Source of the DNA: an uncultured Flavobacteriaceae bacterium
Lineage (GTDB): Bacteria > Bacteroidota > Bacteroidia > Flavobacteriales > Flavobacteriaceae
Reading direction: 5' to 3'
Length of the DNA: 64,000 bases
Assembly (NCBI GenBank): GCA_947497145.1
Contig: CANMFQ010000009.1
Span: 124,001-188,000 of the forward strand
Positions 24,569-31,651 of this stretch are shown here, piece after piece (the first letter of the stretch is position 1; each line of letters starts with the position of its first letter). The notes beneath the pieces are model-generated. The model searched no databases. It worked only from the letters and a program-made list of their open reading frames with translations, and was not told the origin of the DNA. The translations under genes were made by a program, and so were the position numbers.

Positions 24569-24607
24569 AAATGGGAACTTTCAAAATACTATTGAAAATT
24601 CCCATTT
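24569..24607 (-). terminator. Original tRNA-Arg terminator, stranded at the left end of the element
   Basis: Minus-strand hairpin: 9-bp stem (24569-24577 with 24599-24607), one C-A mismatch, 6-bp stem (24579-24584 with 24592-24597), 7-nt loop, then a T-rich minus-strand tail. It abuts attL, where the tRNA 3' end stood before integration. Confidence 0.7.
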
Positions 24608-24630
24608 AGTGACCGCGAAGGGATTCAAAC
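24607..24630. repeat. attL
   Basis: 24-bp sequence beginning TAGTGACCGCGAAGGG, identical to 31575-31598. Bases 24610-24630 are the 3' end of tRNA-Arg (acceptor strand and T arm). Confidence 0.93.
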
Positions 24631-24700
24631 TACCAAAACCTCTTAAATCACTATAAACTTAATAAACTCAACAAAAACAGTAGTTTACATTACGAATAAC

Positions 24701-24740
24701 TTAAAACAATTTAAAACAATCTAAATCAATTAAACATAAT
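24701..24740 (+). repeat. Four degenerate 10-bp phased repeats
   Basis: TTAAAACAAT, TTAAAACAAT, CTAAATCAAT, TAAACATAAT in direct succession, running into the left arm-type repeat. A 10-bp period puts the sites on one DNA face, as for multimeric protein binding or bent DNA. Confidence 0.6.
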
Positions 24741-24759
24741 CGTGCCATAAATCGTGCCA
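24732..24759 (+). repeat. Left arm-type repeat (predicted integrase binding site)
   Basis: 28 bp identical to 31481-31508. Holds two copies of AATCGTGCCA spaced 11 bp apart. Located 101 bp inside attL and just upstream of the integrase -7 element. Confidence 0.75.
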
Positions 24760-24766
24760 TTTTGGT

Positions 24767-24774
24767 TATATTTG
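24767..24774 (+). promoter_or_regulatory. Predicted integrase -7 element (TATATTTG)
   Basis: Exact TAnnTTTG, 22 bp before the integrase ATG. Its -33 region falls on the left arm-type repeat, which suggests autorepression by integrase. Confidence 0.55.
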
Positions 24775-24796
24775 ATATGTTCAAATTATCGGCACA

Positions 24797-26245
24797 ATGG
24801 CAAAACTAAACTTCACATACAGAGGGAAAAAATCAACTGGCAAACTATCCTTACGATTAATCCACACTAGCACATACGATTTTAGAATTAGCACCCCATT
24901 AGTTTCTAAAAGGGAATATTGGTTTAAACGAACTACCAAAACCATAAAAGGAGAGAAAACAACAAAATTGTTTCCTGTTCAATTAAAGGACTTAAACAAT
25001 AACGGTAGTGCAGATTATAAGTCACACAAGGCGAACCTTGAAACCATAGAAGCCCAAATTTTAGATAAATTCATCATAGACAATAATAACGGCATACCTA
25101 TCACCAAAGAATGGTTAAAATGTGCAGTACTTGAATTTAGCAAAGTCTTAGACACTAAAGATAAAGTTGAGGTAGTAATAAAGGCAAATGAGAAAATTCA
25201 AAAAGATGCAGAGCAATTGGAGCAACGTATCACAAATGCAAATTTGCTTAGTAATGCAATCAAAAAGATGTTTGTACGATACAAAACAAACAACAACGAG
25301 TTAAAAAAATACAAGGTTACTCACGGGCTACTGATAAAATACCAAGCATACAAAAAGCAAACTTTCACTATTAAAGAACTAAATCAAGATTTTGCAAATC
25401 ACTTTATGAATTGGGCTTTTATAGATATGAAGTATAGTAAATCTTATATCAATGCTCAACTAAAAAGATTTAGGAGTTCAGCCGTAAAAGCATACGAATC
25501 TGACGAAGATGATATTATCCAAATAAGTAAAACATTAAGAACATTTACAATGTTCGATAAAATCTACAAAGATAAAATAGTTGTAACCCTTAGTTATGAA
25601 GAACTAGATAAAATCGACAATAAAGAAATAACTGACCCTAGACTATTTGATGCAAAAAAAGCAATCTTAATCGGTTGTGAAACTGGCTTGCGATATTCCG
25701 ACCTCAACAAATTAATTGACACGAATATTAAAAATGTAAACGGGGTTAACTACTGGAAATTCAAAACCGAAAAGACAGATACTTTAGTTCAAATAACCGT
25801 TTCCAACAGAATGATATATTTAATGAAAAAATACGGTATACCTCAAACCAACTATCCAAGTAACGGGGTTAAATTCAATGAGGACATAAAAAAAGTTTGC
25901 GCACTTGCGGAAATAAACGAAAACATAAAAGGGAAAAAATCAACTGTTATTGAAATTAACGGAAAAAAAGTTATTAGAAACATAACAGACTACCACCCCA
26001 AATATGATTTAATCACCTCTAGGACGTTTCGACGTTCATTTGCAACAAACTATTACGGCAAAATAGATACCGCGTTAATAACTTCTATAACTGGTCATTC
26101 AACAGAGCAACAACTTAGAGCATATATAAATAACAATGACGAAAGCAATATTTTAAGAACGAAGCAACAAATTGACCAATTCCATGAAGAAAGAAAAAAA
26201 GAAAAAAACAACATAAAGTTAACAGTAATACCGCAAGTGATATAG
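24797..26245 (+). CDS. int: Tyrosine recombinase (integrase) of the tRNA-Arg element
   Basis: 482 residues. An N-terminal arm-binding domain (~1-120, after the AP2-like SVxLRLIxxxxYDFRIST pattern), a SAM-like core-binding domain (~145-245) and a catalytic domain. Catalytic residues: Arg299 in ETGLRYSDL, Arg412 in RTFRRSFATN (the usual box I His is Arg409 here), His434 in ITGHST and Tyr443 in LRAYINN. It catalyses insertion into and excision from the tRNA-Arg site. The C-terminal peptide (KKEKNNIKLTVIPQVI) is duplicated immediately downstream. Probably self-regulated through the arm-site overlap of its promoter. Confidence 0.95.
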   Translation: MAKLNFTYRGKKSTGKLSLRLIHTSTYDFRISTPLVSKREYWFKRTTKTIKGEKTTKLFPVQLKDLNNNGSADYKSHKANLETIEAQILDKFIIDNNNGIPITKEWLKCAVLEFSKVLDTKDKVEVVIKANEKIQKDAEQLEQRITNANLLSNAIKKMFVRYKTNNNELKKYKVTHGLLIKYQAYKKQTFTIKELNQDFANHFMNWAFIDMKYSKSYINAQLKRFRSSAVKAYESDEDDIIQISKTLRTFTMFDKIYKDKIVVTLSYEELDKIDNKEITDPRLFDAKKAILIGCETGLRYSDLNKLIDTNIKNVNGVNYWKFKTEKTDTLVQITVSNRMIYLMKKYGIPQTNYPSNGVKFNEDIKKVCALAEINENIKGKKSTVIEINGKKVIRNITDYHPKYDLITSRTFRRSFATNYYGKIDTALITSITGHSTEQQLRAYINNNDESNILRTKQQIDQFHEERKKEKNNIKLTVIPQVI

Positions 26246-26347
26246 CAAACTAATATCAATAAAATAAACTCTAATTATGAAAATGACCAAAAAAGAAAAA
26301 AACAACATCAAGTTAACAGTAATACCGCAAGTGATATAGCAAACTAA
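26197..26347 (+). repeat. 57-bp imperfect direct repeat of the integrase 3' end
   Basis: 26197-26253 and 26291-26347 are identical except for one base (A/C at 26215/26309), which is synonymous in the shared reading frame. The offset is 94 bp. Confidence 0.92.
26277..26339 (+). pseudogene. Mini-ORF echoing the integrase C-terminus (20 codons)
   Basis: ATG 26277 opens a 20-codon frame (MKMTKKEKNNIKLTVIPQVI) ending in TAG. Its last 16 residues equal the integrase C-terminus. It may be a relic of recombination between two related integrase genes or of a local duplication. Whether it is translated is unknown. Confidence 0.5.
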
Positions 26348-26358
26348 ATACATTCAAT

Positions 26359-26646
26359 ATGTCAGAATCCGAATTTATAAAGAAATTAGAAGAAAAACAA
26401 AGGCTAAAACGTCAAGAACTTGAACTGCAATTTGCGAATTGCGCACAAATTATTTTGGATAAATTTAAGACTGACCTTAAAGAGTTTGATTATTTGAAAG
26501 GTCAACAACGACAATTTCGATTAAAAGAATTTAAGAGCACCATGTTTAAATGGTTTCTTGAAAGTAGTGACATCATTAATTTTATGCCTAAAGATTACCA
26601 AGAAAACTATACACAAGAATTAATTGACTTATTTGATTCTGAATAA
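26359..26646 (+). CDS. Small charged helical protein of unknown function
   Basis: 95 residues, largely alpha-helical and rich in Glu, Lys and Phe (FIKKLEEKQRLKRQELELQ). No signal peptide, no membrane segment, no family that I recognise. It lies 113 bp after the integrase stop and 69 bp before the next gene. The start is ATG 26359. Typical position of a small accessory gene in Bacteroidota elements. Confidence 0.6.
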   Translation: MSESEFIKKLEEKQRLKRQELELQFANCAQIILDKFKTDLKEFDYLKGQQRQFRLKEFKSTMFKWFLESSDIINFMPKDYQENYTQELIDLFDSE

Positions 26647-26715
26647 ATGAAAATTACAGGCTACTCTTAATAACAACCTTTTTATATTTACACAAGCAAC
26701 GGTAAATTTTATATA

Positions 26716-27462
26716 ATGCAATCCAATAAGATAGAAGACTACTTCAAAGAAGAATTTATTAACCGAATTGAATATAGGAGATATGATTTATTACAAAAAC
26801 TATCACTTAATTTTGCTCTTTGTGAAAGTAACAATGAAGAAAGTCAAGTAACCATTTCATTACTTAAAAAAACAAAAAAAAGGCTTTCTAAATTAGAAGG
26901 ACACTTAGCATCTGTTATTAGAGAAGCTGTTCAAACAAAGACAATATTCTATGTATTAGATTACACTATGCAAAGGATTAGTTTTGAATATATAGACGAC
27001 CTTTCAGAAAAAGGCTATTGGGATCGTTATGAGACAGAAACGGAGTATGAATTTGAAGAAATGCTAGAGAACCACCCATCCAAAAAAGAGTTTAAAATAT
27101 TTATGGAGGAGTTAGCCCAAGTTGGGCTACACGAATACTTAACGTCGATTAAGAGTTATAAGACGGAGAGCGGATTTGATATTCCCCCGCCTAATAAGCA
27201 ACCTATACAATCAAAGTATTTAAACTTTAACAATGGCAGAAGGCTAAATCTTCAAGAAAGGTTTTTTTTACTAGATAAAATTACATCTTTTGAAGAAAAC
27301 TTCTTAAAGCCAATCGTAGATAATCCTGCAAAAGAAAAGTTGCTAGCCCTTATTTTAAATTGCAACCCTAAAAATGCTCAACAGGTATTAAACGGCTCAT
27401 ACGACTCTAAACTAAGAGAAGATGAAATATTGAAGTACATTAAAATGATTAAAAAAGAGTAG
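26716..27462 (+). CDS. Hypothetical element protein
   Basis: 248 residues. The N-terminal two thirds are helical and charged. The C-terminal ~80 residues (LQERFFLLDKITSFEENFL ... KLLALILNCNPKNAQQVLNGSYDSK) resemble a segment common in accessory proteins of Bacteroidota mobile elements, sometimes seen at the end of RteC-like regulators; I cannot assign a specific family. No signal peptide. It stands just before the HTH gene, so a regulatory role in excision or transfer is possible but unproven. Confidence 0.6.
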   Translation: MQSNKIEDYFKEEFINRIEYRRYDLLQKLSLNFALCESNNEESQVTISLLKKTKKRLSKLEGHLASVIREAVQTKTIFYVLDYTMQRISFEYIDDLSEKGYWDRYETETEYEFEEMLENHPSKKEFKIFMEELAQVGLHEYLTSIKSYKTESGFDIPPPNKQPIQSKYLNFNNGRRLNLQERFFLLDKITSFEENFLKPIVDNPAKEKLLALILNCNPKNAQQVLNGSYDSKLREDEILKYIKMIKKE

Positions 27463-27537
27463 AAACTCTTATACTAAGTTTTACACCAACCTTTATTTCG
27501 ATTGAAATTGCAGCATTATTAATTTAAAATAGTGTTC

Positions 27538-27810
27538 ATGCAACAATTACAATTTATTGGCACAACGCCCGAACAATTACGAAACGACATCAAACAAGAT
27601 GTGAATAGTCTTTTAAACGACTTCAAAAAAGGCTATGAACCAAAAACGCCCGTCGAATTATTGACGAGAAAGGAAACCGCAGCCCTTTTGAAAATAAATA
27701 TATCTAGTTTATATAACTGGACAAAGAAAGGAAAGTTAAAAAGTTACGGTTTACAAGGGAAAATCTATTATAAACGTAGTGAAGTAGAATCTGCATTAAT
27801 AGAATTGTAG
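27538..27810 (+). CDS. Helix-turn-helix (excisionase/MerR-like) DNA-binding protein
   Basis: 91 residues. The C-terminal half is a typical HTH_17/excisionase-type winged helix: LLTRKETAALLKINISSLYNWTKKGKLKSYG, followed by the wing YYKRSEVESAL. Such proteins direct excision or control integrase and cargo in Bacteroidota elements. ATG 27538 (MQQLQFIG) is chosen over GTG 27532. Two codons' worth of sequence separate its stop from the next ATG (27814), so the two are probably co-transcribed. Confidence 0.85.
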   Translation: MQQLQFIGTTPEQLRNDIKQDVNSLLNDFKKGYEPKTPVELLTRKETAALLKINISSLYNWTKKGKLKSYGLQGKIYYKRSEVESALIEL

Positions 27811-27813
27811 GTT

Positions 27814-28194
27814 ATGGATGCAGCAACGATACCAGTACCCAATATATTGCGGTACACACTAGACACGAATAAACTTTTTAAAGAGGTAAGACACTACAAC
27901 TTAATTGAGGGCGAAGAAATACTATCTAATAAACTCAATATTAGTATAAACAGGGGTTTCAGTAAAGCAAAATATACGTATTCCGTAAAAAAATGGCTAG
28001 GCATCAAATGGAGTAAACAAATTACAGGTTTATTCCCTACACATGAGCCAAATATTTATTTTGGTGATACTTGTAATCGAAGAAACTTTTTGTTGATGAG
28101 GTTTGAAAATAACGGTACAACTTTAAAGGTGTACTATTTCAAAAACTACTATCCATCAAATAAAACCCAACTAATAAACAAAATCAAAGAGTAG
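27814..28194 (+). CDS. Hypothetical element protein
   Basis: 126 residues, rich in Lys, Asn and Tyr, with a predicted mixed alpha/beta fold (SVKKWLGIKWSKQITGLFPTH). No recognised domain, no signal peptide. It follows the HTH gene by 3 bp and is probably in the same operon. A G/C-only hairpin follows. Confidence 0.55.
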   Translation: MDAATIPVPNILRYTLDTNKLFKEVRHYNLIEGEEILSNKLNISINRGFSKAKYTYSVKKWLGIKWSKQITGLFPTHEPNIYFGDTCNRRNFLLMRFENNGTTLKVYYFKNYYPSNKTQLINKIKE

Positions 28195-28210
28195 TATTAG
28201 TACAAAAAAA

Positions 28211-28226
28211 GGGGGTGCATACCCCC
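28211..28226. terminator. G/C-rich hairpin, possible terminator
   Basis: GGGGGT (28211-28216), loop GCAT, ACCCCC (28221-28226), preceded by A7. It lacks a clear plus-strand T run; on the minus strand the A run would give U7. Confidence 0.45.
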
Positions 28227-28447
28227 CCTAATTTGTTCAAATGCCATCTGCAACGATAACAGCCCAAAAATACAATTTTTCACCACTAGTATAGTATAGG
28301 GTAAAAAAGGGCTAAAAATTAATCCTTATCACCTCATTAGATAACATAAAATTAAAGGTTAGTAGCGACTATATCAAGAACTGGAATAGTTCTAAGTTCA
28401 TAGAGGTAACTAATAACAATGAAGGCACGAAAAGGACGCACCTTAAA

Positions 28448-29266
28448 ATGAAAAATAAACCTATAGGATTGGAATATTTAATAATAACAGAGGATGAAAT
28501 TTCGATTAGTGCTAATGCTAGGATATTAAACAAAAACTATTCAAAAGGTATTTGTATAAACACAATAGAGCAGTTTAGAGATGTTTTAAAAAACAACGGT
28601 ATAGAATTACATCAAGAATTTGTAAAAGAATCTGTACTAAGTTTAGCACACGTAAAAAACGATGTTGACGTTGAAATAAGTGATTTAAAAAGTGATTTTT
28701 CTTATATACGCCCTTCTAAGTTCTTTAAAATTGATAGAAACAATAGTATCACTTTTGAAAGTATAAATAAAGGCGATAAAATGAACGTCAATATTTATGG
28801 CAAATATTTTGAAATGAATACAAACAAATCCAAATATAAAGGGTTAAATATTGAAATGGGTTTTTACAACGGTATTACAAGAATAGAAAGTAAATTCGAT
28901 GATTGGAGAACGGTAAAAAAGTATTTAGGAACACGAAATACAATTGAAATACTACAGCAAAAAAACGTTAATAGTATAATTTTAAATAACATATTAAGAG
29001 GGCAACCAATGGAGACACCTAAAGTTGATTTAAGCCAATTAAAGACGGTTTCACAGTTTGATGATTATGCACGTACTAAATTGCTTTTTGAGTTATGTAA
29101 TGGCAATTTTCATTTAATGACGGAAGAAATAAAACAAAGGCTAGGGAAAAACACGAAGCCTTCATATCAAGTTAAAAAATTAAAAAAGTATCTACCAATG
29201 ATACAGAACCCACAAGGTAAAAAACTAAATAGCATCATCAAATTAAAAGAAGCCTTGAAAGAATAA
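28448..29266 (+). CDS. Putative replication-initiation (phage/plasmid II/X-like) protein; N-terminus probably longer
   Basis: 272 residues from ATG 28448. The pattern GLEYLIITEDEISISANARILNKNYSKG, then VNIYGKYFEMN and NGITRIESKFDDWRTVKKYLG, resembles the gene II/X-type Rep proteins of filamentous phages and small Bacteroidota plasmids. The frame stays open and protein-like for about 44 codons upstream (back to a stop at 28313; DNIKLKVSSDYIKNWN matches the usual Rep N-terminus), but there is no ATG, GTG or TTG there. The gene may use a rare start such as ATA or ATC, or have lost its start. Repeats downstream could be an origin. The Rep call is by pattern. Confidence 0.5.
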   Translation: MKNKPIGLEYLIITEDEISISANARILNKNYSKGICINTIEQFRDVLKNNGIELHQEFVKESVLSLAHVKNDVDVEISDLKSDFSYIRPSKFFKIDRNNSITFESINKGDKMNVNIYGKYFEMNTNKSKYKGLNIEMGFYNGITRIESKFDDWRTVKKYLGTRNTIEILQQKNVNSIILNNILRGQPMETPKVDLSQLKTVSQFDDYARTKLLFELCNGNFHLMTEEIKQRLGKNTKPSYQVKKLKKYLPMIQNPQGKKLNSIIKLKEALKE

Positions 29267-29589
29267 TCATAATAGGGCATATTTCGGAAAATAAAAGTCA
29301 TATACTAACATGAAAACCTTGTATTTTTTGCACAACTACACACATATAGAAAGCCTAGTATTTTTACACAACTTAAAAAGAGTATAACAACAGTAATTAA
29401 GACTATTCTTGTAATAATCCACTATCTACCACGCATGAGATACTTATCATAATTGCAGTTATTCAGAACTTAGTAAAACTTAACAAATAAATAGGTATAG
29501 TTTCTAGGGTGAAGGTTAAGCATAAGAATATATTATTTAGAATCAATATAAATAAGCATTTATAAAATTTCATTTACTTACCTTGTAAT
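29267..29589 (+). other. Gap downstream of the Rep-like gene with direct repeats
   Basis: 323 bp without an ORF. Two imperfect direct repeats of about 22 bp (29316-29336 and 29350-29372: CCTTGTATTTTTTGCACAAC and CCTAGTATTTTTACACAAC) may be iterons. No clear -7 element before 29590. Confidence 0.45.
29315..29373 (+). repeat. Pair of iteron-like direct repeats
   Basis: Two copies of (A)AArCCTwGTATTTTT-(TG)-CACAACT, 35 bp apart, just after the Rep-like gene. Confidence 0.55.
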
Positions 29590-29772
29590 ATGAAAATGTT
29601 AGTTTTTATAATGTTTGTCTTTGTTCTTTGCTCATGTAATAGCAGACCACAACAAAACAATTTAGATAATGAAAAAAGACTATTATTAAAAGAAATAGAC
29701 AGTCTGAAAAAAGAATTGTACAAGTGTAATATGATGCTTGATTCATACGAAGGTTTACCAATGGGTGTATAA
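29590..29772 (+). CDS. Small lipoprotein with short coiled coil
   Basis: 60 residues: a signal peptide with a lipobox-like LCSC (Cys16), then a charged helix with heptad character (NEKRLLLKEIDSLKKELYKCNMML). It has no known family. The stop overlaps the next start by one base (TAATG), so the pair is co-translated. Small lipoproteins of this kind occur in phage lysis and entry-exclusion modules; nothing here proves either. Confidence 0.55.
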   Translation: MKMLVFIMFVFVLCSCNSRPQQNNLDNEKRLLLKEIDSLKKELYKCNMMLDSYEGLPMGV

Positions 29773-30011
29773 TGGGTATCTATGAATTTAACATATTAAC
29801 CGACCATGATAAATATGATACCGTATTTTCTAAAGGTCAATTTGTAGATGCAGTAACAGAAGGAAAAACAAAATACGCCCTATACTCGATATCTAAATTT
29901 TGGGTTGAGGTTGTTTATAATACCCCTAAAAACGAGATACAAGGTATTTGTAGTTTTGTATCGGGCGAAAAATTGAATCGTTATAGTAACTTATCAAACA
30001 AAACTCTATAA
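29772..30011 (+). CDS. Small hypothetical protein coupled to the lipoprotein
   Basis: 79 residues with alternating strands (YEFNILTDHDKYDTVFSKGQF, YALYSISKFWVEVVYN), no signal peptide and no membrane segment. The length and strand pattern recall small element-encoded hypothetical proteins. One-base overlap with the upstream lipoprotein. A bidirectional terminator follows. Confidence 0.55.
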   Translation: MGIYEFNILTDHDKYDTVFSKGQFVDAVTEGKTKYALYSISKFWVEVVYNTPKNEIQGICSFVSGEKLNRYSNLSNKTL

Positions 30012-30045
30012 AAAAGCCATCAACAATATTTGAAGATGGCTTTTT
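30011..30045. terminator. Bidirectional terminator between convergent element genes
   Basis: Perfect 11-bp stem AAAAAGCCATC (30011-30021) with GATGGCTTTTT (30035-30045). The A5/T5 edges give a T run on both strands. Confidence 0.9.
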
Positions 30046-30065
30046 AATATTATATATTGATCAAA

Positions 30066-30353
30066 TCAAAATGATGATATCAAAACTCTTTGAACAAAGT
30101 CATTAACATTAATAAATGCAAATTTCCTTTTGAATATATCAGTAGAAATGATATTAATTAATTTGCCAAAACACTCATTTGCAAATGAATTTGTCACAAC
30201 ATCAACACCCTCAAAATCACAAACAATTTTGTCATTACTCTCAATCTCTAAGAGAATTTCATTTCTTAATTTAGAAGCAAGGTTTCTTGTTCCTAAACTA
30301 GAAGCAATTTCTCCAAATTTTACAATTTTTATGTTTTCAGTCATCAGTTCCAC
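30066..30353 (-). CDS. STAS-like (DUF4325-type) protein
   Basis: 95 residues. The segment KIVCDFEGVDVVTNSFANE (~43-60) followed by CFGKLI matches the STAS-like DUF4325 pattern, in which a Ser/Asn-containing loop (here TNSFANE) takes the place of the phosphorylated Ser of SpoIIAA-type anti-anti-sigma factors. It lies 52 bp downstream of a STAS/GHKL-ATPase gene on the same strand. Such proteins commonly pair with ATPases of this type in mobile and defence regions; their output is not known to me. Confidence 0.75.
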   Translation of the reverse strand: MELMTENIKIVKFGEIASSLGTRNLASKLRNEILLEIESNDKIVCDFEGVDVVTNSFANECFGKLINIISTDIFKRKFAFINVNDFVQRVLISSF

Positions 30354-30405
30354 AATACAATATTACAAACGTTTATATAAAAAACAACTTTTTTATCAAA
30401 AACTA

Positions 30406-31323
30406 TCACTTATTCTCAAACATAGTTTCAAAAACATGTTCTTTATAGTCGTAATATTTACCCGTAAATTTCCTGTAATCTACGTCAATATTAGTATTAA
30501 TACGCATGTATACGCAAGTACCTTGCCAATAAGGAGTGGAATTCACAACAATACTATCCTCGCTTAAGTCTAATTTGTTTTCTCCACTGATAATACTTAA
30601 CCACCCTTTGTTCATTTCTATAAACTGAGATGTCGCATATAATCCATGTCCTTGACCTTTTCCATTGGTCACTCCTTCCTTAATACAACTTAACAACGCT
30701 TCTTTTTCTTCAAAATTATATACTTCTTCCAATGCTTTTTTAATTCCAATACCAAAATCACACACCATTAATCTAATAGAATTCAAATTTGGGAAATATT
30801 GAGCAACAACCCAACCCTTACCTTTCCCCAATTCCTTATCCGAATGATTAAGTACATTATCAAGAATTTCATTAAAACAATAATCTAAACTAGCATAAAC
30901 ATTATCATCTATTTTACTGTTCACTCTCAACATTTTTAAAATTGACGTTAATACATCAATCTGATTGTCCTTATTATAAGACTGAATTTTAACAAAACTA
31001 TGAGGGTATAAGTTTTTAAGTGAGTTTGGAATGTTTATATCAAGATTGTTGAAAAACTGCATTTTTGAAAGATAAGTTACTATAGAAGAGTTAGGGTTAT
31101 ACTTAAACTTACCGACAATATTAATACCTAAACTTTCCAAATACTTTATTGAGCACAATATCAACAAGGCATAATCTGGGTATATGAAATTTACTAAACT
31201 ACAATCTAGTATTAGTTTTGATTTTGGATATTTCTCAAAATGTTGCACCATTTTATTACAATGACTAAGCACATCTTCATGACAAGAAACTGAATCATTA
31301 ATAGTAAAAACAAAATCATTCAT
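30406..31323 (-). CDS. GHKL ATPase with N-terminal STAS-like domain
   Basis: 305 residues. The N-terminal ~115 residues look STAS-like (SKLILDCSLVNFIYPDYALL, SLGINIVGKF). From ~130 comes a histidine-kinase-like ATPase domain: N box NEILDNVLNHS (151-161), G1 box DFGIGI (189-194), G2 box GKGQGHGLYA (221-230). No His phosphoacceptor (H box) and no receiver domain are present, so it is closer to SpoIIAB/RsbW-type serine kinases or MORC/Hsp90-like switches than to a two-component kinase. It is the lead gene of a two-gene unit at the cargo end of the element. Confidence 0.82.
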   Translation of the reverse strand: MNDFVFTINDSVSCHEDVLSHCNKMVQHFEKYPKSKLILDCSLVNFIYPDYALLILCSIKYLESLGINIVGKFKYNPNSSIVTYLSKMQFFNNLDINIPNSLKNLYPHSFVKIQSYNKDNQIDVLTSILKMLRVNSKIDDNVYASLDYCFNEILDNVLNHSDKELGKGKGWVVAQYFPNLNSIRLMVCDFGIGIKKALEEVYNFEEKEALLSCIKEGVTNGKGQGHGLYATSQFIEMNKGWLSIISGENKLDLSEDSIVVNSTPYWQGTCVYMRINTNIDVDYRKFTGKYYDYKEHVFETMFENK

Positions 31324-31346
31324 GTATTACTAATTTAACTTTAAAA

Positions 31347-31354
31347 CAAACCTA
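31347..31354 (-). promoter_or_regulatory. Predicted -7 element (TAGGTTTG) of the ATPase-STAS pair
   Basis: Minus-strand match to TAnnTTTG, 24 bp before the ATPase start, so the leader would be short. No clear -33 TTG. Confidence 0.5.
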
Positions 31355-31480
31355 CATCAAATTCATTCAAAAATAAAAAATTGTCAGAATAATCCGAGTA
31401 CCTTGTTCGATTCACTTTTGAAAAGGTGATGTTTAAACAACTAAACGAGACGTTAGTTTTTTAAAATGTATTCAAACTTA

Positions 31481-31508
31481 AAACATAATCGTGCCATAAA
31501 TCGTGCCA
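31481..31508 (+). repeat. Right arm-type repeat (predicted integrase binding site)
   Basis: 28 bp identical to 24732-24759, same orientation, 66 bp inside attR. Contains the two AATCGTGCCA units. Confidence 0.75.
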
Positions 31509-31529
31509 ATTCAATATTACTTAAAATAA

Positions 31530-31572
31530 AAAATCCCTTAACTATCTATTTTACAGATATTTAAGGGATTTT
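31530..31572 (-). terminator. Element-supplied replacement terminator for tRNA-Arg
   Basis: Minus-strand hairpin: 12-bp stem (31530-31541 with 31561-31572), one mismatch, 5-bp stem (31543-31547 with 31555-31559), 7-nt loop, then T-rich on the minus strand. Same design as the stranded terminator at 24569-24607. Confidence 0.75.
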
Positions 31573-31574
31573 GA

Positions 31575-31598
31575 TAGTGACCGCGAAGGGATTCAAAC
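31575..31598. repeat. attR
   Basis: 24 bp identical to attL; bases 31578-31598 form the 3' end of the tRNA-Arg gene. Confidence 0.93.
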
Positions 31599-31651
31599 CC
31601 CCAACCCTCAGAGCCGAAATCTGATGCGCTATTCAGTTGCGCCACGCGGCC
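31578..31651 (-). tRNA. tRNA-Arg (anticodon TCG)
   Basis: 74 nt on the minus strand. Acceptor stem GGCCGCG/CGCGGTC (one G-U pair), D stem GCGC/GCGC, anticodon stem TCAGA/TCTGA with loop TTTCGGC (anticodon TCG at 31615-31617), T arm GGGGGTTTGAATCCCTT. The CCA end is not encoded. The 3' 21 nt come from the att core, so integration restored the gene exactly. Confidence 0.93.

Follow-up and report, generated by a model that had tools for sequence, protein, structure and literature searches.

A kinase–STAS gene pair carried by a tRNA-Arg element of a Flavobacteriaceae bacterium: a putative branch of the CapK/VapK kind of switch

The two genes at the end of a 7.0-kb element in the window (the whole analysed stretch of 64,000 nucleotides, from the 5.1 Mb, 198-contig genome of an uncultured Flavobacteriaceae bacterium) were interpreted as a new branch of the recently described kinase–STAS switch, one in which the effector is not encoded beside the pair. 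That the pair belongs to this family and that its products are related as kinase and substrate is held with considerable confidence. The complete reading, namely, a stand-alone kinase–substrate switch of the CapK/VapK kind that is carried as cargo, probably triggered by DNA damage, acting in trans and likely serving phage defence, is regarded as evenly balanced; single-stranded DNA (ssDNA) as the trigger is likewise an even prospect, and the defence role taken by itself is proposed tentatively.

According to the proposed mechanism, the GHKL protein would be a serine kinase whose substrate is the STAS protein, with Ser56 as the most likely acceptor (Thr54 being possible), and it would be switched on by ssDNA that arises from phage attack or DNA damage and is bound near Phe46. 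The phosphorylated STAS protein would then release, or bind, a partner encoded elsewhere. Since the STAS protein has neither a VapC-blocking tail nor a DNA-binding domain, this partner is probably not encoded beside the pair, and for this reason the output would act in trans on a host protein, most likely in phage defence or a damage response. Should the pair function with no effector linked to it, the damage-sensing kinase–STAS unit would be a plug-in on mobile elements that taps a host pathway, and the STAS protein would serve as a direct bait for its target in the host.

The gene pair and its tRNA-Arg element

The first ORF (30406..31323, minus strand, 305 aa), listed as a STAS-like/GHKL protein, is a predicted serine kinase of the CapK/VapK type according to its Pfam match (PF02518, HATPase_c, E 2.2e-7, above cut-off), its conserved boxes and its place in the tree. 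It is followed after 52 bp by the gene of a DUF4325 STAS-like protein, the predicted kinase substrate (30066..30353, minus strand, 95 aa; PF14213, E 3e-14), whose start may be the ATG at 30344, giving 92 aa; the two genes are the last in the element, and both ORFs of the original prediction, with their spacing, were thus recovered. Residues N156, H160, D189, G191, G225 and G227, which we take to be those of the GHKL boxes, were invariant in all 53 aligned kinase rows, the window included, and E152 was kept in 51 of them (the alignment omits L112, and the column counts also omit L113). The ATPase boxes were therefore present, as had been predicted, and intact rather than inactive in the homologues. 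A two-component histidine kinase was rejected, as Pfam found neither an H box nor a DHp domain, HATPase_c being the sole domain above cut-off. The kinase profile gave weak histidine-kinase matches only in PDB (E about 0.01), neither protein matched NCBIfam at E 0.01, and the closest named relatives of the kinase were from Flavobacteriaceae. In PHROGs, the kinase matched phrog_3364 (function unknown there; E 1.9e-31), and the two proteins matched separate halves of phrog_5816, a hint that a fused form exists. The STAS-like character that had been ascribed to the kinase N-terminus found no confirmation at the sequence level, its hhalign comparison with the DUF4325 profile being non-significant (E 0.06).

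The element extends from about 24607 to 31598 and is inserted at the 3′ end of a tRNA-Arg gene (tcg; 31577..31651, minus strand, ARAGORN). It is bounded by 24 identical bases at 24607 and 31575, which overlap the tRNA-Arg 3′ end and form the first part of direct repeat D4 (93% over 30 nt); the left att repeat, a copy of the tRNA-Arg 3′ end, occupies 24607..24636, and the right one, inside tRNA-Arg, 31575..31604. The inner end repeat D3 (31 bp, 97%; 24732..24762 and 31481..31511) possibly represents integrase arm sites. With these att repeats and a tyrosine integrase gene at the far end (24797..26245, plus strand; PF00589, E 8.1e-6, 26.2 bits, just under the cut-off of 27.1), the view of the pair as cargo of a tRNA-Arg element, at the end opposite the integrase, was upheld. 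The element also carries a gene for an excisionase-like HTH_17 protein (27532..27810, plus strand; PF12728, E 6.7e-11; phrog_66, E 4.6e-8). A 59-bp stretch over the integrase 3′ end (26195–26253) recurs at 26289–26347 with one mismatch. An A/T-rich hairpin between two converging genes (inverted repeat I12, 30007..30049; 20-nt arms, 3-nt loop, 85%), which is absent from the terminator scan output, may act as a two-way terminator. As to the pair's own promoter, a weak candidate was present (TAGGTTTG; 31347..31376, minus strand), with TAnnTTTG and an upstream TTG with one mismatch about 23 bp 5′ of the kinase start, and its consensus is presumably of the Bacteroidota type; however, the pattern is near chance, with a slight excess in the window (77 observed against 57.4 expected), and the claim of a promoter stood to that extent only.

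The tRNA/ftsZ side of the site was matched, in whole or in part, in 14 of 14 genus genomes (in G919 by a short tRNA-like match only), and the integrase-end query gave at most 43 att-like first bases, or no match, in the 13 other genus genomes. At one of the seven fetched sites (L140) the left-flank gene stops about 60 bp from the tRNA, and at others of the fetched tRNA-Arg sites of the genus the gap is filled by differing genes. These flanks indicate an insertion, with the pair as its cargo, at a site that is much used. It was also observed that G924 (L142) has a phage-like gene set, recognised by eye, at the same tRNA-Arg site, and that three att-like copies about 380 bp apart lie at the tRNA-Arg site of G921 (G921:C7:78375-79168).

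Comparison with known kinase–STAS systems

A 14-row profile of STAS proteins, drawn from the window's clade, the sister clade and a single viral form from Clostridioides, matched the solved Escherichia VapS chain (9z7o) with E 1.4e-7, the GTR motif included, and a broader profile of ten STAS relatives matched it with E 1.1e-12. VapS was the sole significant match of both profiles in PDB, with no SpoIIAA or RsbV chain among the matches listed; P0001 as a single sequence matched nothing there, and the VapS fragment search matched no Escherichia plasmid or phage record. In the available text of the description of these systems (Chambers et al. 2026, PMC13373217, June 2026), CapK–CapS is an ssDNA-activated kinase with a repressor that it phosphorylates, and VapK–VapS–VapC is an anti-phage system of kinase, STAS antitoxin and PIN toxin that protects against phage Bas42 in dependence on VapK F54 and VapS S48; according to the published model, the ssDNA-activated kinase phosphorylates the STAS serine, which releases DNA in the case of CapS and toxin in that of VapS, the C-terminal tail of VapS being what blocks VapC. 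Together with the VapS homology, this account agrees with the original prediction of a partner-switch-like kinase–substrate pair tied to immunity.

The window pair resembles VapKSC in that a kinase without an HTH is followed by a STAS protein with a significant profile match to VapS, and perhaps also in a conserved aromatic residue of the kinase N-terminal domain. Unlike VapKSC, it has no PIN/VapC gene, the next features being a converging gene and the hairpin; its kinase lies outside the PIN-linked kinase clade; its STAS protein stops at the end of the STAS domain, without a VapS-like C-terminal tail (the sister-clade proteins are about 10 residues longer); and Asn occupies the S48 column, its neighbour being Ser. 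All 11 clade members have Asn (Asn55 in the window protein) aligned to VapS S48 and Ser (Ser56) as the following residue, and the sister clade had His or Asn and then Ser (6/6). The PIN-linked STAS proteins carried Ser or Thr in the S48 column and never Ser one residue on in all 14 scorable rows, these being the 16 PIN-labelled rows less L090, whose match lies inside the kinase ORF, and L074, in which no third gene was seen. Other rows comprised seven Ser-Ser and two Thr-Gly combinations, with Asn-Ser (L042), Val-Ser, Thr-Phe, Asp-Pro, Pro-Ser and Thr-Ser in single rows.

Column 46 of the kinase was Phe in 10 of 10 aligned rows of the window's clade and Phe or Trp in 11 of the 13 PIN-linked kinases with sequence there, and it was aromatic in two of five sister-clade rows and in none of the two fused and three membrane-linked ones. 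From this column conservation, Phe46 would correspond to F54 of VapK, which stands outside the alignment. Asp50 of the same N-terminal domain is kept in the window's clade and in the sister clade and was placed at STAS Ser56 by the weak, non-significant hhalign alignment; as a guess, it might mimic a phosphorylated STAS domain.

As in CapKS, the kinase gene is directly followed by the STAS substrate gene, and 88 of 443 capKS, according to the available text (PMC13373217), immediately follow a restriction system, a position that most of the sister clade shares. The pair differs from CapKS in that Pfam finds no HTH on the kinase (305 aa) and no wHTH on the STAS protein (95 aa) and in that no immune operon lies directly downstream. 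A GHKL kinase with intact boxes and a STAS protein are also the components of SpoIIAB–SpoIIAA and RsbW–RsbV; the N box E-x3-N-x3-H and the Ser position are, we assume, as in SpoIIAB–SpoIIAA, in that Ser56 would line up with SpoIIAA Ser58. Here, however, the kinase has an extra N-terminal domain, no sigma factor was noticed nearby (the Pfam scan of the element genes showed none), and no significant sequence match to these proteins was obtained.

Both proteins matched, in order, the N-terminal part of the PADLOC 'DrmA' model PDLC02567 (E 3.3e-16 and 4.4e-5), as if a fused kinase–STAS stretch lay in this model; no fusion of kinase–STAS to DrmA was seen among the loci analysed here. DISARM was rejected, the match covering positions 64–384 of 1750 only and no helicase or other DISARM gene being found in the element. 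No pair-only branch was found in the literature searched, which leaves aside most subscription papers and bioRxiv.

The window's clade and competing explanations

In the kinase tree, which omits L075 (a fragment) and L094 (a gene broken by a stop), the window, L028–L036 and viral contig L113 formed an 11-row clade (support 100/99). The restriction-linked clade was its sister (86/85), and the PIN-linked kinases formed a separate clade of 13 rows (100/99). Members of the window's clade were present in only two of 199 family genomes, its own and one at 67%, and a search of 395 class genomes returned its own genome and one sister-clade locus (E 1e-40), with no others. Viral scans with P0001 alone and with a PIN-linked kinase gave no matches.

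When 144 neighbouring ORFs (6 kb on each side; L034–L036 not scored against one another) were compared all against all, five similarities emerged in clade loci: the excisionase-like HTH was common to the window and L113 (34% identical), a dehydrogenase-like gene of L028 matched two L035 ORFs, and L030 and L035 had a sensor/regulator pair in common. No third gene or defence gene common to all 11 clade loci was found among these ORFs. The defence role once proposed for the pair was supported for its relatives, in view of their restriction neighbours and, in the available published text, VapKSC protection, but found no such support in the clade itself, whose members share no neighbouring defence gene.

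Viral contig L113 carries genes for a head protein, head protease, small terminase and HNH protein and has an integrase at one end (32% identical to that of the window, E 2.8e-23). Its pair comes last before a tRNA-Arg (acg), from which it is separated by about 640 bp, and runs in the orientation opposite to that in the window. L030 has a LytTR response regulator directly upstream of the pair and a relaxase and an integrase 3–6 kb downstream. No att-like repeat was found in L113 or L030, nor a second tRNA-tail copy in L028, L031 or L040, and four integrase queries found no integrase in the sequence searched (6 kb for L034) in 8 of the 11 clade loci. In L028, the kinase starts about 230 bp after a tRNA-Asn, and in the sister-clade locus L040 an integrase stands beside a tRNA-Asn, with an rseP flank of the same kind as in L028. 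In L034–L036 (Flavobacterium), the pair occupies one housekeeping site, L034 being placed by shared flanking genes. The dN/dS values were 0.06–0.21 for the clade kinases in 4/4 comparisons and 0.05–0.18 for the STAS proteins in three of four, the L031–L032 comparisons being near saturation; the fourth STAS comparison (L035–L036) gave 1.11 from very few changes. It should be mentioned that the pair of L030 (9162–17187), placed between the regulator and the relaxase–integrase set, perhaps belongs to a third carrier element.

The interpretation as a switch is favoured by the VapS homology, the intact kinase boxes, a clade without a common third gene, low dN/dS, a patchy and partly mobile spread that includes a second element with the pair before tRNA-Arg (L113), relatives in phages, plasmids and a viral contig, the Phe46 column, and the CapK/VapKSC data in the available published text. 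Counting against it are the lack of a cis effector and of a clade-wide defence gene, Asn55 rather than Ser at the VapS S48 column, a kinase N-terminus without STAS confirmation at the sequence level, the equation of Phe46 with F54 by column conservation only, the housekeeping site of L034–L036, which fits a host function, and the one STAS dN/dS of 1.11 with its few changes.

Two genes with so patchy a distribution (2/199 family genomes, own genome only in the class sample) and no third gene common to the clade would also suit a toxin–antitoxin system in which the kinase would be the toxin, acting by phosphorylation of a host protein, with the STAS protein as its decoy substrate or inhibitor, no third gene being needed; other kinase–STAS modules do have toxin-like outputs, a PIN-like gene following the pair in 15 of 40 loci. 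Nevertheless, the chromosomal copies L034–L036 are stable, the kinase comes first and the STAS protein second, although an antitoxin-first order is usual in such pairs, and the kinase of the published relatives is, in the available text, a trigger only; this explanation was considered unlikely.

A partner switch of the RsbW/RsbV type that controls a sigma factor or stress regulator of the host, without a defence role, was considered improbable. The invariant N box E-x3-N-x3-H and the position of Ser56 at SpoIIAA Ser58, both likenesses presumed, speak for it, as do the minimal STAS protein without a tail, the housekeeping site of L034–L036 and the LytTR regulator directly upstream in L030. This regulator, however, is not beside the other pairs (a similar one in L035 is about 4 kb off), no sigma factor stands beside the pair in the 11 loci by eye, VapS and no SpoIIAA/RsbV chain was matched in PDB, and two copies are end genes of integrase-bearing elements. 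A control module of the element itself, by which DNA damage sensing leads to excision or induction, would agree with the presence of pair and integrase in one element in the window and in L113, the integrase and relaxase 3–6 kb downstream in L030, and a pair near the integrase in phage MPV1. Such a module is more doubtful still, given the 8/11 clade loci in which no integrase was found (four queries; 6 kb for L034), low dN/dS outside elements, and gene orientations that differ between the window and L113. A VapKSC remnant that has lost its toxin, with which the homologous STAS protein and the common PIN-linked relatives (15/40 loci) agree, is scarcely credible, as the clade is separate from the PIN-linked kinases (13 rows, 100/99), spans several genera and is intact and constrained.

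For the stand-alone kinase–substrate switch, a broader proposal is made with greater reserve: the pair may represent a third branch of kinase–STAS immune switches, namely, a two-gene module free of a cis effector, with the acceptor moved by one residue, a sister clade in type I operons, and single chains in viral contigs and plasmids.

The restriction-linked sister clade and the DUF4325 family

In the sister clade, the pair stands directly after hsdR in L037, L038, L040, L041, L005 and L094 (HsdR confirmed by Pfam in five sister-clade loci, L005 being outside the scan), and L039 stands alone; no effector was seen by eye directly after the pair in L037, L040 and L041. Such a position at the end of type I operons could couple DNA damage to restriction, as a switch for its alleviation or boosting, and the sister clade offers a testable link from DNA damage sensing to type I restriction, which is a long-standing question of restriction alleviation. 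In L038 (8304–10805), genes for a HigB-type toxin and an HTH protein were noted about 0.6 kb after the pair. In L094/L116 (G318), the kinase gene has an internal stop and hsdR is present as two ORFs, so that this restriction-linked pair is probably a decaying locus.

In the phylum, DUF4325 was found at 76 places in 66 of the 395 genomes sampled, and 40 of these places, picked to spread over genera, were fetched. A GHKL relative immediately preceded DUF4325 or was joined to it in one chain in 33 of the 40 loci: 28 were recognised by models (21 neighbours and the seven single chains L079, L080, L083–L086 and L089), and five were added by Pfam places (L087, L088, L091, L099 and L106). At least five of the 40 loci (L073, L076, L081, L097 and L098) had a type I specificity gene no more than 5 kb from DUF4325, a lower bound because the loci scanned were those restriction-like by eye, against 0.72 expected from 448 domains in 235.8 Mb of 69 genomes; L073 and L076 come from one genus rich in restriction–modification systems and are not independent. 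L100 adjoins a type IIG and L107 a type III restriction system.

The PIN-like gene of about 200 aa, which follows the pair in 15 of the 40 loci, was detected by a motif script in 14 and by eye in L090; among four tested with Pfam PIN, L076 was above cut-off, L107 just below it, and L098 and L100 gave no match. In L093, L096, L099 and L106, a gene for a small membrane protein was seen by eye in place of the PIN gene and is possibly another output; the L093 protein is weakly SLATT_4-like (E 0.0045, below cut-off), and that of L099 is not. The single HTH-GHKL-DUF4325 chains of L080 and L083–L086 had no Ser or Thr at the acceptor columns (5/5), and an HTH was seen by Pfam in L083, the sole HTH-kinase-DUF4325 chain tested; they are possibly regulators that no longer need phosphorylation.

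Relatives were found on plasmids of Nostoc (fused), Alicyclobacillus, Pseudomonas and Sulfobacillus (kinase side incomplete) and in phages of Clostridioides and Marinitoga, the pair being near the integrase in Marinitoga phage MPV1. Viral contig L115 has a fused relative near its end, after genes for an M23 peptidase and a holin. Consequently, such pairs proved not to be confined to core genomes, occurring in phages, on plasmids and beside restriction systems as well as at plain chromosomal sites. In L097 (4043–10757), the pair lies between two SRAP-like gene copies recognised by eye, the second of them shorter, and type I restriction genes adjoin. On the Pseudomonas plasmid (L024, 5160–11360), the pair adjoins genes for a DNA adenine methylase, an 8-oxoguanine DNA glycosylase and a 7-cyano-7-deazaguanine synthase.
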